Shown: piece by piece, positions 3,575 through 21,887 of the stretch
How the letters are laid out: the number at the start of each line of letters is the position of its first letter
Position numbering within the stretch: the first letter of the stretch is position 1
Origin: a virus
Reading direction: 5' to 3' (one strand)
Virus record (IMG/VR): IMGVR_UViG_3300025168_000628
Span: 1-24,926 of that record
DNA: 24,926 nucleotides
Notes under the pieces: generated by a model
Told to the model about the DNA's origin: nothing
The model's database searches: none
Seen by the model: only the letters and a program-made list of their open reading frames with translations
Position numbers and translations under genes: made by a program

Positions 3575-4153
3575 ATGTATAGAAGTCTAAAAGAAGTTAC
3601 TTTATCAACTACTCCATTATTTACAACTGCAGAAGCTAAGGATTTTCTTAAAGTTGATACTACGGCAGATGATACTTTAATTGATAATTTAATTAAAGCT
3701 GCAACTGAGTCTTGTCAAATTTATACTAATCAATATTTTTTAAATACTGTTGTAGAACAATACTCTGATTTATGGGCTGAGGTATATACACTTTATAAAA
3801 GTCCAGTTTCATCAATTACTCATATTAAGTATTATGATACTAATGATGTAGAACAAACTTTAGCCGCTTCTAATTACATTTTAGATGATATTTCAAAACC
3901 TGCAAGAATTGGATTAGCAGTTGATGCTACTTTACCAGATTTAGCAGATAGAATAAACGCTGTTCATGTTAAATATACTGTTGGTTATGGAACAGCTTCA
4001 ACAGATGTTCCAGATGGAATAAAACAAGCAGTTCTTTTAACTTTGGGAAATTGGTATGAAAACAGGCAAACAGTAATAACTGGAAGAACAGCAACAGAAT
4101 TACCTTTATCAAGTCAATACTTATTAGATCAGTATAAAATACAAACATGCTAA
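3575..4153 (+). CDS. Head-tail connector (HK97 gp6 / phiE125 gp8-like)
   Basis: Encodes 192 residues resembling the gp6-like connector family. These proteins form a ring beneath the portal and begin the neck. The N-terminal part has the family pattern: a segment on entering the connector domain followed by DDTLIDNLIKAATESCQIYT (about residues 33-52), then a beta-rich middle and a helical C-terminus (QAVLLTLGNWYENRQT). It is the first gene after the capsid terminator and overlaps the following head-closure gene by 7 bases, as in HK97-type neck operons. No catalytic function is expected. The family match is from memory of sequence patterns, not a search. Confidence 0.83.
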   Translation: MYRSLKEVTLSTTPLFTTAEAKDFLKVDTTADDTLIDNLIKAATESCQIYTNQYFLNTVVEQYSDLWAEVYTLYKSPVSSITHIKYYDTNDVEQTLAASNYILDDISKPARIGLAVDATLPDLADRINAVHVKYTVGYGTASTDVPDGIKQAVLLTLGNWYENRQTVITGRTATELPLSSQYLLDQYKIQTC

Positions 4154-4479
4154 GCATAGGCCAATTAGATAGAAGAATTGAAGTTGTATCTCCATCTTAT
4201 ACAATAGATAGATATGGAGAACAGACTAAAGTATATACTGATATTGCTTATACTTTATGGGCTCATGCAGATTGGAAATCAAGCAGAAGAAAAGAAGAAT
4301 CTCAAGAACAAGTTCAAAAAACAGATTTAGTTTTTTATGTACGAAATTTAGGAGTTGAAATTTTAGGAACTTATAGAATAAATTATGATTCCAAAACTTA
4401 CATAATACATGGGATAAAAGAAATAGATGGAAGAGAACAATTTTTAGAAATAGAAACAAAATTAAAAGATAATAACTGA
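4147..4479 (+). CDS. Head closure / head-tail joining protein (SPP1 gp16-like)
   Basis: Encodes 110 residues matching the Phage_H_T_join pattern. An N-terminal LDRRIEV strand is followed by SPSYTIDRYGEQ, a WAHADW segment and a late GTYRINYDSKTYIIHGI stretch. Such proteins close the connector after packaging and provide the surface for tail attachment. Length is typical for the family (about 100-115). Its ATG overlaps the end of the connector gene, and its stop overlaps the next start (TGATG-type junction at 4477-4481), indicating translational coupling in the neck operon. Confidence 0.85.
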   Translation: MLSIGQLDRRIEVVSPSYTIDRYGEQTKVYTDIAYTLWAHADWKSSRRKEESQEQVQKTDLVFYVRNLGVEILGTYRINYDSKTYIIHGIKEIDGREQFLEIETKLKDNN

Positions 4480-5036
4480 TGGGAATTTCAGTAGAAGCAA
4501 AGGGAATTAAAGAGATAACTCAAATGTTCAAGGGTTTGCCAAAGCAAGTTAATAAAGATTTGGTTTGGGGGAGATTTTGGAAAAAGGTTACTGTTCCTTT
4601 ATTGACTGCTGCTGTAAATGAAGCTCCTTTGTTAAAACATCACTCAGGAAAAGATTCAAAGAGAAAAGGAAGAGTTGGAGTTTCATATCCACCAGACAAA
4701 AGTTTAACAATTTCAAGAGGAACATTGAAAAAATCTCTTAAATTTTACAGAACAAGAGCCTCAAAATCTAAAGATGTTCATGGTGCTTATATTGGCCCAA
4801 GAGTAAAAGGAAAATTCAAAAAGAATAAAGGGGGATATTATGGAGCTTGGGTTGAGTACGGACATAGAAATAGAGATGGATCAACATCAAAACCAAACCC
4901 TTTTATGCAAAGAGCATGGAATCAAAAAAGTGGATCAGTTTTAGCAAATGGTTTTTCCGAGGCAGAACAAATATTTATTAAAGCAAACAGAGCTCATGTA
5001 AATAGATTAAAAAAATACGGAAAATTCGGATATTAA
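4479..5036 (+). CDS. Neck/tail-completion protein, HK97 gp10-like
   Basis: Encodes 185 residues, basic, resembling the HK97 gp10 family. The N-terminus (VEAKGIKEITQMFKGLPKQV) is the usual helical start. The late AWVEYGHRNRDG (about residues 125-136) and PNPFMQRAWN (140-149) correspond to the family's conserved G-(P)-x-(P)-F-M-x-x-A region. These proteins act at the head-tail junction or tail terminator complex. The gene shares one base with the previous stop and is one base before the next start. Slightly longer than many family members because of a Lys/Arg-rich middle (about residues 60-75 and 105-118). Confidence 0.82.
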   Translation: MGISVEAKGIKEITQMFKGLPKQVNKDLVWGRFWKKVTVPLLTAAVNEAPLLKHHSGKDSKRKGRVGVSYPPDKSLTISRGTLKKSLKFYRTRASKSKDVHGAYIGPRVKGKFKKNKGGYYGAWVEYGHRNRDGSTSKPNPFMQRAWNQKSGSVLANGFSEAEQIFIKANRAHVNRLKKYGKFGY

Positions 5037-17332: not shown

Positions 17333-17704
17333 ATGATAAAAGGATTTGAAAAACTAACGGATGAATTAACAGATGATGAACTAAAAAAAGTTCCATCAAT
17401 TGTTAAAGGTATTGGAAAACGTATTGGAAAAGAAAATGCAGTTACTTCCAAGATCATTTGCGACAAAATGAATCTGATTGGAGTTAGATTGAGAAAGATA
17501 ATTCACTTTATTAGAGTAAACAATTTACTTTATGGATTATGCTCAAACTCAAAAGGTTATTATGTTGCAAAAAACATTAAAGAACTTGAGGATAATAACA
17601 AAAGTTTACAACAAAGAATTGCATCTCAAATTGAAATATTAAACGCTCTTGAAAAACAAGCTGTTATGTTTGGAGGAACTGGAGAACAAACAGATTTTGA
17701 ATGA
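17333..17704 (+). CDS. Winged-helix-like DNA-binding protein, unknown role
   Basis: Encodes 123 residues. Residues 30-78 (GKENAVTSKIICDKMNLIGV, then RLRKIIHFIRVNNLLYGLCS and NSKGYYVA) have the pattern of a winged helix: recognition helix, then a wing with Gly-Tyr-Tyr. A helical stretch follows (ELEDNNKSLQQRIASQIEIL, residues 84-103) that may form a coiled coil for dimerisation. This type of small protein is common beside replication genes of Bacteroidetes phages, to my recollection. The stop overlaps the methyltransferase start (ATGA at 17701), so the two are coupled. A regulatory or replication-accessory role is inferred. Confidence 0.65.
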   Translation: MIKGFEKLTDELTDDELKKVPSIVKGIGKRIGKENAVTSKIICDKMNLIGVRLRKIIHFIRVNNLLYGLCSNSKGYYVAKNIKELEDNNKSLQQRIASQIEILNALEKQAVMFGGTGEQTDFE

Positions 17705-18324
17705 AAGTTTTAGAATTATTTGCAGGTAGTAGATCAGTTGGAAAAGTTGCTGAAGAAATGGGATTTGAAGTTTTTTCTGTTGATATAAATAATTTTGAAA
17801 ATATTGATTATGTAGTAGATATATTAGATTTTGATGTAAATAAAATTCCTTTTGTTCCAGATGTTATTTGGGCAAGCCCTCCTTGTACTTATTTTAGTGT
17901 AGCTTCAATAGGGCACCATTGGAATAAAGATCATACTCCTAAAACTAAAGAATCTATTTTAGGCCTTAAAATTTTAAATAAAACTTTATCTATTATAAAA
18001 CAATTTCCTCAATCAAAATTTTTTATAGAAAATCCAAGAGGAAAAATGAGAAGAATAATTAAAGGAATAAATAGAACAACAGTAACCTATTGTAGCTATG
18101 GAGATGATAGAATGAAGCCAACAGATATTTGGAGCAATAACATTAAGGATATTTTTAATAAGGATGGATGGATTCCAAAACCAATTTGTTTTAATGGAAA
18201 TGTAAATTGTAAACATGAAGCTGCTCCAAGAGGATCTAAAACAGGAACTCAAGGAAGAAAAAATAATTATGAAAGAAGTAAAATTCCAACTCAATTAATA
18301 AAAGAAATACTTTTATCAATATGA
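17701..18324 (+). CDS. Compact C5-type DNA cytosine methyltransferase
   Basis: Encodes 207 residues with C5-methyltransferase motifs: MKVLELFAGSRSVGKVAEEM (motif I, SAM binding), SVDIN (26-30), ASPPCTYFS (58-66, motif IV with catalytic C62), FFIENPRG (107-114, motif VI-like, E110) and YCSYGDDRMKPTDIWSN (130-146). A C-terminal KIPTQLIKEI helix resembles motif X. The length is well below the usual 300 or more residues, with little room for a target-recognition domain. It could protect phage DNA from host restriction or mark it. Both ends overlap neighbours as ATGA junctions, so it is integral to the operon. Specificity cannot be read from sequence. Confidence 0.8.
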   Translation: MKVLELFAGSRSVGKVAEEMGFEVFSVDINNFENIDYVVDILDFDVNKIPFVPDVIWASPPCTYFSVASIGHHWNKDHTPKTKESILGLKILNKTLSIIKQFPQSKFFIENPRGKMRRIIKGINRTTVTYCSYGDDRMKPTDIWSNNIKDIFNKDGWIPKPICFNGNVNCKHEAAPRGSKTGTQGRKNNYERSKIPTQLIKEILLSI

Positions 18325-19067: not shown

Positions 19068-20363
19068 ATGAAAAACTATAACGAAAACAAAAATGTTTAT
19101 GAAGCTGCAAACGAAAGAATTGATTTTATCTTTAATAATTTTGAAAGAATTTACATGTCTTTTAGTGGAGGTAAAGATTCTGGAGTAATGTTAAATCTTG
19201 TATTAGAGTACATGAGGAAAAATAATATAACTGATAAAATAGGATTAATGGTTTTAGATAATGAAGCTAATTATGAATATTCTTTAAAATTTATGCATAA
19301 AATAATAAATGAAAATATAGATTTATTAGATGTTTATTGGTGCTGTTTACCCGTAACACTTCCTTGCACTGTTAGTAGTTATGAAATAGATTGGCAATGC
19401 TGGGGAGTTAACGATGAAAAAAGATGGATAAGGCCTATGCCAAATGAAGATTATATAGTTAATATAGATAATCATAAATTTGATTTTTTTATTGAAAATA
19501 TGTCTTATGATGAATTTTGGGATAAATTTGGAGAATGGTATGCACAAGATAAAAAATGTGCAAATTTTATAGGAATAAGAACTGATGAAAGTTTAAATAG
19601 GTATAGAGCTATAATGAACAAAAACAAAATCATGATCAATAATTTATGTTGGACTAAAAAAAATACAAAAAATTGTTATAATGTATATCCTATTTATGAT
19701 TGGAGAACAGAAGATGTTTGGATAGCTAATGAAAAATACAATTGGATATATAATGAACTTTACGATATATTTTGGAAGGCAGGACTAACCATTGCTCAAA
19801 TGAGAGTAGCAAGTCCTTTTATGAGTGAATCTAAATCAAGTCTAAATTTATATAGAATTATTGATGGGCATGTTTGGAGTAGATTATGTGCTAGAGTTTC
19901 AGGAGCTAATTTTATAGCTACCTATGGAAAACAATTAACATACAAATCATTTACCTTGCCAGATAATCACACTTGGAAAAGTTTCTGTAAATTTTTATTA
20001 AATACACTACCAAAAGAATCTGGAGAAAATTTTAAGTTGCGCTTTATTCAATCATTAAAATATTGGTGGAGAGTAGGGCGGGGATTAGAAGATAAGGTAA
20101 TAGAAGATTTAACAAAAAATAACATTGATTTTAAGTTAGGAGAAAAAACAAGACATGGTAGAAAAGATAAAACATGCGTAAGAATGATTCCTCCAGATCA
20201 TTTAGACATGTTAAAATGTCATAATTCAGATGTTACAAGTTGGAAAAGATTTGTAATTACAATATTAAAAAATGATCATACTTGCAAATATTTAGGTTTG
20301 GCTCCTACACACGAACAAGCAAAACGACAAAGAATAATTCAAAACAAATATAAAAACATATAA
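19068..20363 (+). CDS. PAPS reductase-fold protein, IbrA-like (DUF3440-type C-terminus)
   Basis: Encodes 431 residues. The PP-loop SGGKDS at residues 33-38 marks the ATP-pyrophosphatase/PAPS-reductase fold, which activates a substrate through adenylation or binds an adenylated nucleotide. Further IbrA-like features are VLDNEANYEYSLKFM (62-76), WCCLPVTLPC (91-100), the Trp-rich IDWQCWGVNDEKRWIRPMP (107-125), and a C-terminal domain containing SWKRFVITILKND (391-403). The function of IbrA is not biochemically known; IbrA and IbrB were described as regulators of eib genes in E. coli prophages. Here the ParB-like IbrB partner lies 399 bases downstream, with an EctC homologue between them. Sulfate assimilation is unlikely in this setting. 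Confidence 0.85.
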   Translation: MKNYNENKNVYEAANERIDFIFNNFERIYMSFSGGKDSGVMLNLVLEYMRKNNITDKIGLMVLDNEANYEYSLKFMHKIINENIDLLDVYWCCLPVTLPCTVSSYEIDWQCWGVNDEKRWIRPMPNEDYIVNIDNHKFDFFIENMSYDEFWDKFGEWYAQDKKCANFIGIRTDESLNRYRAIMNKNKIMINNLCWTKKNTKNCYNVYPIYDWRTEDVWIANEKYNWIYNELYDIFWKAGLTIAQMRVASPFMSESKSSLNLYRIIDGHVWSRLCARVSGANFIATYGKQLTYKSFTLPDNHTWKSFCKFLLNTLPKESGENFKLRFIQSLKYWWRVGRGLEDKVIEDLTKNNIDFKLGEKTRHGRKDKTCVRMIPPDHLDMLKCHNSDVTSWKRFVITILKNDHTCKYLGLAPTHEQAKRQRIIQNKYKNI

Positions 20364-20364
20364 A

Positions 20365-20742
20365 ATGAAAGTAATTAATGAAAACGATTTAATAGGAACA
20401 GAAAGAGATGTTAAATTTAAAGAAGGTAGAAGTATTAGAATGATATTAGAAAAGGATGGAATGGGATTCTCATTTCATAAAACAATTATTCCAAAAGGAA
20501 AAAAAGGACATTGGCACTACAAATATCATAAGGAATCATGCTATTGTATTAAAGGAAAGGGAATATTAACAAATTTAACAACTAAAGAAAAATATAAAAT
20601 TAATGTTGGAGATATTTATATATTAGACAATCATGATAATCATACTTTTGAATCATTAGAAGATGTTGTTTTAATATCTGTATTTAATCCTCCAATTAAA
20701 GGAAATGAAATTCATCAAAAAGATGGATCATATAAAAACTAA
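20365..20742 (+). CDS. ectC: Ectoine synthase (EctC) homologue, cupin
   Basis: Encodes 125 residues, the usual EctC length (about 130). The whole sequence follows EctC: LIGTERDV (9-16), EKDGMGFSFHKT (29-40), HWHYKYHKESCYCIKGKG (49-66), GDIYILDNHDNHTF (82-95) and VFNPPIKGNEIHQKDGSY (106-123). Numbering coincides with published EctC: metal ligands E57, Y85 and H93 are all present, as are R25, T40, Y52, H55, F107, E115 and H117. Position 21, usually Trp, is Gly. EctC cyclises N-gamma-acetyl-diaminobutyrate to the compatible solute ectoine. No ectA or ectB gene is in the window, so the substrate must come from the host, or differ. It starts one base after the IbrA-like gene. Confidence 0.82.
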   Translation: MKVINENDLIGTERDVKFKEGRSIRMILEKDGMGFSFHKTIIPKGKKGHWHYKYHKESCYCIKGKGILTNLTTKEKYKINVGDIYILDNHDNHTFESLEDVVLISVFNPPIKGNEIHQKDGSYKN

Positions 20743-20761: not shown

Positions 20762-21286
20762 ATGAAAACAGAAAAATTTTTATCTCCAGTTTACAATGTA
20801 TTAAGAGTACATATAAGTAAAGTAAAGGCAAATGATTATAATCCAAACGCAGTTGCTCCTCCAGAAATGGAACTATTAGAAACCTCTATTTGGGAAGATG
20901 GTTATACTATGCCAATTGTTACTGTTTATGATCCAGAATCAGAAATGTATATTGTAGTAGATGGATTCCATAGATACTCAACAATGATTAATAGTAAAAG
21001 AATAAGAGAAAGAGAGGAAGATCATTTACCAATTAGTGTTTTAAATAAAGATATTTCAGATAGAATGGCCTCCACAATTAGACATAATAGAGCTAGAGGA
21101 AGTCATAATATAGATTTAATGAGTACAATTGTAAGTGAATTAGTAGAAATGGGAAAAGGAGATGCTTGGATATGCAAACACATTGGAATGAGTAAAGATG
21201 AATTATTAAGAATGAAACAAATAACTGGTTTATCTTCTTTGTTTCAAAATAAAGACTTTTCACAAAGTTGGGATGCTGAGATATGA
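20762..21286 (+). CDS. ParB/sulfiredoxin-fold protein, IbrB-like
   Basis: Encodes 174 residues. The N-terminal 90 residues have the ParB-like nuclease/sulfiredoxin fold pattern: VHISKVKANDYNPNAV (about 16-31), EMELLETSIWEDGYTMPIVT (36-55) and the nucleotide-site motif IVVDGFHRYSTM (61-72), where GFHR corresponds to the GxHR box. The second half, ASTIRHNRARGSHNIDLMST and then GDAWICKHIGMSKDELLRMK, is a helix-turn-helix-like region typical of IbrB. IbrB always accompanies IbrA in the cases I know. Proteins of this fold bind ATP or CTP and can phosphorylate or hydrolyse. Its stop overlaps the next start (ATGA at 21283). Partition function is unlikely without ParA. Confidence 0.85.
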   Translation: MKTEKFLSPVYNVLRVHISKVKANDYNPNAVAPPEMELLETSIWEDGYTMPIVTVYDPESEMYIVVDGFHRYSTMINSKRIREREEDHLPISVLNKDISDRMASTIRHNRARGSHNIDLMSTIVSELVEMGKGDAWICKHIGMSKDELLRMKQITGLSSLFQNKDFSQSWDAEI

Positions 21287-21723
21287 TAAAACAAATTTTT
21301 ATTCCTTACTGGAGATGGGAGTGTTATAAGAATAAAATGTATAACAAAATATCCAAAGAAGATGAATATATTAAAAAAGAATTATGTTTTAATTTAATGA
21401 ATAATACAAAAGAATTTAGCAGATCAATGCACGATGTAGTTAAATTATGGAATCTAACAATGTTAAATCATCTTTCAAATAAAGGTTTAAACCGAAAAGC
21501 TTTTGTTGGTCAATGTGCTTGTTATTACAAATATCAAATACCAGAATATATTACAAGACAAGTTTGGAAAACTTTAACTAAAGAAAAAAGTATATTAGCA
21601 AATAATGAAGCTATAAAACATATTAAAAAATGGGAATACAAAATAAAATTAAACAATATATTAAATTATGGGAATCAAGATGTTATAAAAAGGGAATACC
21701 AGATGAAGCTCCAATTCAAATAA
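21283..21723 (+). CDS. Unrecognised 146-aa protein in the IbrAB-like cassette
   Basis: Encodes 146 residues starting at an ATGA overlap with the IbrB-like gene. Visible features are FIPYWRWECYKNKMYN near the N-terminus (residues 6-21) and a conserved-looking central block, NRKAFVGQCACYYKYQIPEY then ITRQVWKTLTKE (71-102), rich in aromatic residues with a Cys-x-Cys. The last 30 residues overlap another gene (21630) in a different frame and are low-complexity, so they may not be under selection. I recall small phage proteins of similar look beside IbrAB-like pairs, but cannot name a family. No membrane segment or catalytic motif is seen. Confidence 0.65.
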   Translation: MIKQIFIPYWRWECYKNKMYNKISKEDEYIKKELCFNLMNNTKEFSRSMHDVVKLWNLTMLNHLSNKGLNRKAFVGQCACYYKYQIPEYITRQVWKTLTKEKSILANNEAIKHIKKWEYKIKLNNILNYGNQDVIKREYQMKLQFK

Positions 21724-21887
21724 GTGATAAAGTTCCTTCATATAAAAAAATTTGTTTATCAATATTAAAAAATGATTATAAAGATTTAGGACATATTCCA
21801 AAAAAAAGTAAATATTACTCAATTTTAAAAAGAATAGAAATAGATCAAAGGGAATATTATGGAAAACAATTAAAGTTAAAATTTTGA
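21630..21887 (+). CDS. Small protein repeating the C-terminal domain of the IbrA-like protein
   Basis: Encodes 85 residues. Residues 10-26 (YIKLWESRCYKKGIPDE) and 35-50 (VPSYKKICLSILKNDY) followed by LGHIPKKSKYYSIL resemble the end of the IbrA-like protein (VTSWKRFVITILKNDH then CKYLGLAP). At DNA level the 17 bases CAATATTAAAAAATGAT are identical at 20260-20276 and 21760-21776. ATG 21630 is the only ATG before the conserved part, so the gene overlaps the upstream one by 94 bases. This probably is a stand-alone version of the domain, possibly binding the same partner or nucleic acid. Domain similarity is visible; function is unknown. Confidence 0.65.
   Translation: MGIQNKIKQYIKLWESRCYKKGIPDEAPIQISDKVPSYKKICLSILKNDYKDLGHIPKKSKYYSILKRIEIDQREYYGKQLKLKF

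Follow-up and report, generated by a model that had tools for sequence, protein, structure and literature searches.

The window, i.e. the whole stretch of DNA that was analysed, is a 24,926-base IMG/VR virus record (IMGVR_UViG_3300025168_000628) with portal, replication and recombination phage genes on board. At positions 20365-20742 it encodes a protein of the EctC (ectoine synthase) family, which is embedded in a tight operon of the order IbrA, EctC, IbrB, ORF4 and ORF5 (ORF, open reading frame):

19068..20363, + strand: IbrA-like protein, PP-loop ATP-pyrophosphatase/3'-phosphoadenosine-5'-phosphosulfate (PAPS) reductase fold plus DUF3440 (Pfam DUF3440 7.3e-55, PAPS_reduct 3.9e-11; phrog_2302 6e-106)
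20365..20742, + strand: EctC-family cupin of 125 amino acids, ATG start (Pfam PF06339 1e-43, NCBIfam 150.5 bits, AlphaFold2 model)
20762..21286, + strand: IbrB-like protein, ParB fold with a VVDGFHRY box and then a helical region (phrog_2159 2e-74; AlphaFold2 and Foldseek)
21283..21723, + strand: ORF4, conserved module protein with a domain of about 115 amino acids (own hidden Markov model, HMM)
21630..21887, + strand: ORF5, short, similar to the DUF3440 C-terminal tail, overlapping ORF4, start codon uncertain (Pfam DUF3440 positions 137-167, 2.9e-6)

The ectC start lies one base past the IbrA stop codon, and the ORF4 start overlaps the IbrB stop by 4 bases. A PP-loop/DUF3440 gene adjoining a same-strand ParB-fold gene, the arrangement by which IbrA/IbrB modules are recognised, is thereby present, with nothing but the EctC gene in between. 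The IbrA and IbrB neighbours, which were absent from the initial annotation of the window, proved to be the key to the finding: IbrA, EctC and IbrB form a fixed phage gene set that is shared by the window and more than 100 other phage contigs.

The initial annotation had described the product of 20365-20742 as following EctC end to end. This was confirmed by Pfam PF06339 (Ectoine_synth), which covers positions 1-124 of 127 (E=1e-43, 149.1 bits, cut-off 27), and by NCBIfam PRK13290 (150.5 bits, cut-off 128). The top matches by sequence in the PDB were 5bxx, 5onm, 5onn and 5ono. The AlphaFold2 model (mean predicted local distance difference test score, pLDDT, 95.7) has the single-domain cupin fold of 5BXX and 5ONM, and ectoine synthases were its best Foldseek matches (5bxx_B: TMq 0.88, TMt 0.97, root-mean-square deviation 0.9 A, 40% identity; 5onm: TMq 0.90). 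The protein therefore belongs to the EctC family, while its status as an ectoine synthase is not established.

Residues were compared between 96 phage EctC homologues and 18 operon and 85 orphan EctCs. S23, R25, T40, Y52, H55, E57, Y85, H93, F107, E115 and H117 are near-invariant across the phage set and carry the same numbers in the window protein, and the positions listed in the initial annotation, which comprised all of these except S23, were thus correct. The metal site, judged by homologous positions and fold match, i.e. by ligand positions rather than geometry, is kept at 98-100% (E57, Y85, H93), and R25, T40, Y52, H55, E115 and H117 are each at least 98% conserved, which argues for retained chemistry. 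Altogether, nearly all metal and catalytic residues of EctC, the C-terminal lid included, are kept at 96-100%.

The substrate-contact tryptophan is the exception. In P. lautus EctC, Trp21 touches the substrate and a W21A variant retains 9.7% activity; the residue was reported as conserved among operon EctCs (437 sequences) and orphans (145) (PMC6344544). Trp was present in all 18 operon and all 85 orphan EctCs of our comparison, mostly shifted in the latter, whereas 95 of the 96 phage proteins have no Trp in the region and a single one keeps it. The Gly21 of the window protein, a departure from a bona fide ectoine synthase that had been pointed out at the start, is therefore not an isolated oddity of the window but a trait of the entire phage clade. 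W50 (86%) and H51 (93%) are further characteristic of the phage group. Compared with the operon EctCs of P. lautus (5ONM) and S. alaskensis (5BXX), the phage proteins thus share the cupin fold (TM 0.9), E57/Y85/H93, R25, T40, Y52, H55, F107 and the C-terminal lid residues, but differ in the missing Trp21, C59 in place of V59, the W50/H51 motif, the lack of EctA/EctB and the position inside, or fused to, IbrAB. The window protein also has Ser105 where operon EctCs have Cys, a substitution that is found in many orphans as well.

To analyze how widely the arrangement occurs, the best 80 loci were taken per IMG/VR scan, the contigs being fragments and some of them near-duplicates. EctC does occur in other phages, as a profile search returned 216 viral relatives. 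The order IbrA–EctC–IbrB was found in 74 of the best 80 of these; in the remaining ones the triad is rearranged or one partner is absent, several lying at a contig end. Since loci found in this way are preselected by EctC, a fair test of linkage starts from IbrA. Of the 80 closest IbrA loci in this converse scan, EctC was present at 80, IbrB at 78 and ORF4 at 77. Neither EctA nor EctB was detected at any of the 80 loci, and EctB was not found in 26 larger contigs searched whole, while the same query matched in 16 of 120 bacterial genomes. The ectA/ectB context of a bona fide ectoine synthase is thus missing here, which extends what had been noted for the window. Any other neighbour family, from outside the module, occurred in 12 of 86 loci at most. 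The spacing between EctC and IbrB varies, and several loci have extra genes between them.

Among 212 isolated-phage records with IbrA homologues, this EctC was found only in XCL1123, Gaia and Nebkiss, which also hold the closest IbrA (62%; next 42%). The triad is further present at three loci from metagenome-assembled genomes (MAGs), with phage-like genes at L094 and L095. MT835761 (L013, labelled Bacteriophage sp.) was considered as a counter-example, but with its high GC content and an EctB upstream of ectC it was read as bacterial contamination.

In 34 loci EctC and IbrB lie in one open frame, with domain envelopes 3-8 residues apart in all but one; a shared frame alone is no proof of a single protein at each locus, and some of the 34 are overlapping fetches of one contig. 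In Mycobacterium phage Gaia the frame is annotated as one coding sequence (gp104, KJ567043). Gaia gp104 and XCL1123 (MN313256) have the same three components, known there by annotation labels only, and the annotators chose the name 'ectoine synthase/ParB multidomain protein'.

A tree was calculated from 213 unique IbrA sequences, obtained from the converse scan and from two scans seeded with EctC-less IbrA, the latter two supplying most of the 90 EctC-less sequences outside the clade. EctC defines a single clade with a branch support of 99 (122/123 inside, 0/90 outside). In the EctC tree (100 sequences, only 125 columns) the phage and MAG-triad EctCs fall on one side of one branch (Shimodaira-Hasegawa approximate likelihood ratio test, SH-aLRT, 99), separate from ectoine-operon and orphan EctCs. 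Pairwise distances across 102 loci correlated best for IbrA–EctC (r=0.58), followed by IbrA–IbrB (0.27) and EctC–IbrB (0.23). The only EctC-less member of the IbrA clade is L326, in which a 1-Cys peroxiredoxin (3868-4617, + strand; AhpC-TSA 2.6e-24) occupies the EctC slot between IbrA and IbrB. As IbrB has a ParB/sulfiredoxin fold, the pairing of the two may not be accidental, or L326 may be a single odd contig.

Differences were also found within IbrA itself. The window protein has the motifs FSGGKDSG and DNEANY. SGGKDS is present in 121/121 EctC-linked IbrAs, and DNEANY in 117/122 of them versus D[LFYWM]EAQY in 87/91 EctC-less ones; judged from these motifs, the DNEANY switch next to an intact PP-loop suggests that the substrate of IbrA may have changed. 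A C-terminal ECGxH is the catalytic cysteine motif of PAPS reductase (CysH). It was found in 0/121 EctC-linked IbrAs, which ruled out a true PAPS reductase, and no solved structure matched the IbrA sequence at 1e-3. The gene pair itself resembles IbrA/IbrB as known from E. coli (YbdN/YbdM) and from phages ('co-activators of prophage gene expression'), where the same PP-loop plus DUF3440 gene lies beside a ParB-like gene in one operon; ordinary IbrAB lacks EctC and has the motif D[L/F/Y]EAQY in IbrA, whereas the module described here has EctC as an additional member and DNEANY as the IbrA motif. Dnd phosphorothioation (DndC with the ParB-like DndB) likewise pairs a PAPS-reductase-like enzyme with a ParB-superfamily partner, but the match to the DndC profile is weak (2e-8 over about 100 residues, far below family level), and the phage module has an extra cupin and a DUF3440 tail. 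In the literature searched (open-access full text) we found neither a description of the IbrA–EctC–IbrB module nor a study of the biochemistry of IbrA or IbrB.

The reading that we favour, and to which we give about an even chance, is that the EctC-family metal cupin is a third subunit of the phage IbrA/IbrB operon, performing a ring-closing or related dehydration on a substrate other than that of ectoine synthesis, coupled to activation by IbrA and to IbrB at nucleic acid. This reading fits the conserved metal and catalytic residues, the lost ectoine clamp and the constant presence of a partner enzyme that uses ATP. From this we infer catalysis, an order of steps and a kind of substrate, as follows. 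IbrA, as a PP-loop ATPase, would bind ATP and then activate or adenylate a substrate. At the E57/Y85/H93 metal site of the cupin an amine would attack a metal-polarised amide of this or a linked substrate, with loss of water and closure of the ring. IbrB, with its ParB fold, a nucleoside triphosphate (NTP) switch and probable DNA binding, would deliver or gate the activity at nucleic acid, and instead of ectoine the reaction would yield either a metabolite specific to IbrAB or a modified nucleotide or nucleic acid. The EctC homology, the conserved ligand positions and the solitary state described in the initial annotation are supported, as is its suggestion of a cyclase used on a different substrate. 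More speculatively, a three-component phage system of ATP-using IbrA, an amidine-type ring-closing cupin and a DNA-binding ParB protein might modify the nucleic acid or nucleotides of the phage with a cyclic group, e.g. for restriction evasion, which we regard as possible but doubtful.

Several points weigh against a catalytic third subunit. Most IbrAB loci lack EctC, which is therefore an add-on and not part of the core reaction, and L326 dispenses with it even inside the IbrA clade. Part of the co-inheritance and distance correlation of IbrA and EctC is expected from linkage alone. The conserved metal ligands could also serve a sensor or structural role, and we know of no activity for IbrA, for IbrB or, conclusively, for any orphan EctC.

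The main rival explanation, to which we assign a low though real probability, takes up the sensor role. The cupin would bind a small molecule or metal and control the DNA-binding or NTP state of IbrB in the manner of cupin-helix-turn-helix regulators, with IbrAB regulating phage or host genes. The fusion of EctC to the N-terminus of a ParB-fold protein resembles such combinations of cupin and DNA-binding regulator, IbrAB is annotated as a co-activator of prophage gene expression, and KorB/ParB/Noc were the best Foldseek matches of the IbrB model (moderate, pLDDT 74.2), with SerK and sulfiredoxin weaker. However, the conservation of metal and catalytic residues up to the C-terminal lid goes beyond what ligand binding needs, and the pairwise distances of EctC follow those of the ATP-using IbrA more closely than those of IbrB.

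A working ectoine synthase, supplied with N-gamma-acetyl-diaminobutyrate (N-gamma-ADABA) by the host and serving as a phage osmoprotection gene, is unlikely. Such a role would agree with the full-length similarity above the NCBIfam cut-off, with the solitary EctC of P. syringae, which enabled an ectC mutant of H. elongata to form ectoine again (PMC5924519), and with a 2026 paper that interpreted a viral ectoine synthase as salt protection (PMC13079714). It is opposed by the absence of EctA/EctB from the 80 loci and of EctB from the 26 larger contigs, by the loss of the substrate Trp and by the constant association of EctC with IbrA/IbrB, common frames included, as these families have no known link to osmolytes. 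The 'osmoprotection moron' of the initial annotation could accordingly not be upheld, given the clade-fixed IbrA/IbrB partners (80/80 loci), the frames shared with IbrB and the loss of the substrate-clamping Trp. That EctC and IbrAB are mere neighbours in a cargo region, functionally uncoupled, is very improbable: variable spacing, intervening genes and the peroxiredoxin of L326 speak for it, but a chance neighbourhood was rejected on the converse scan, the single IbrA clade and the shared frames, and the correlated distances, the clade-specific IbrA motif and the rarity of other recurring neighbours (each in at most 12/86 loci) argue in the same direction.

The presence of EctC is taken to identify an ectoine producer, and first reports describe viral ectC as an auxiliary metabolic gene for osmoprotection. 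As a large clade of phage EctCs is bound up with IbrA/IbrB and no longer has the clamping Trp, such annotations need a check of the genomic context; the phage EctC probably does not make ectoine and is not to be taken for a salt-tolerance gene. Orphan EctC and IbrAB, two uncharacterised families, thereby gain a common testable setting, and the module occurs in cultivable phages, namely Gaia and Nebkiss, which grow on M. smegmatis, and XCL1123, whose host is Pseudoalteromonas marina.

Bacterial orphan EctCs, e.g. that of P. syringae, whose function was called unresolved (PMC5924519, PMC6344544), resemble the phage proteins in lying outside the ect cluster and in C59 and, often, Ser105. They differ in keeping the Trp, in their mixed neighbourhoods without IbrA/IbrB and in branching apart from the phage clade. 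These neighbourhoods were considered as a clue to the substrate and set aside, as they are mixed (non-ribosomal peptide synthetase, NRPS; acyl-CoA dehydrogenase; ABC transporters) and have no common partner. Some solitary bacterial EctCs with a CYC motif (L097-L173) have NRPS-like (AMP-binding) neighbours and 17 have acyl-CoA dehydrogenase-like ones, a hint of secondary metabolism. A basal group of EctCs that contains only M. abscessus proteins was described as group 1 and doubted as ectoine synthases (PMC5924519); these may be EctC-IbrB proteins of Gaia-like prophages. No full-length EctC–IbrB fusion was found among the matches listed for 399 genomes from the order to which L100 (Actinosynnema) belongs, a set meant to include mycobacteria.

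ORF4 matched no Pfam or PHROG family, but its own HMM was positive in 141 of the 154 triad loci, a set with some duplicates. It also lies beside many EctC-less IbrAB loci (75/91 unique EctC-less IbrA sequences) of the Microcystis phage type (e.g. L179:3070-3495), and in one record it is labelled ParB/sulfiredoxin. ORF5 is fused to ORF4 in L064. Upstream of the module, at 17701-18324 of the window, a C5-cytosine methyltransferase-like DNA methyltransferase is encoded (phrog_757 7.9e-32).
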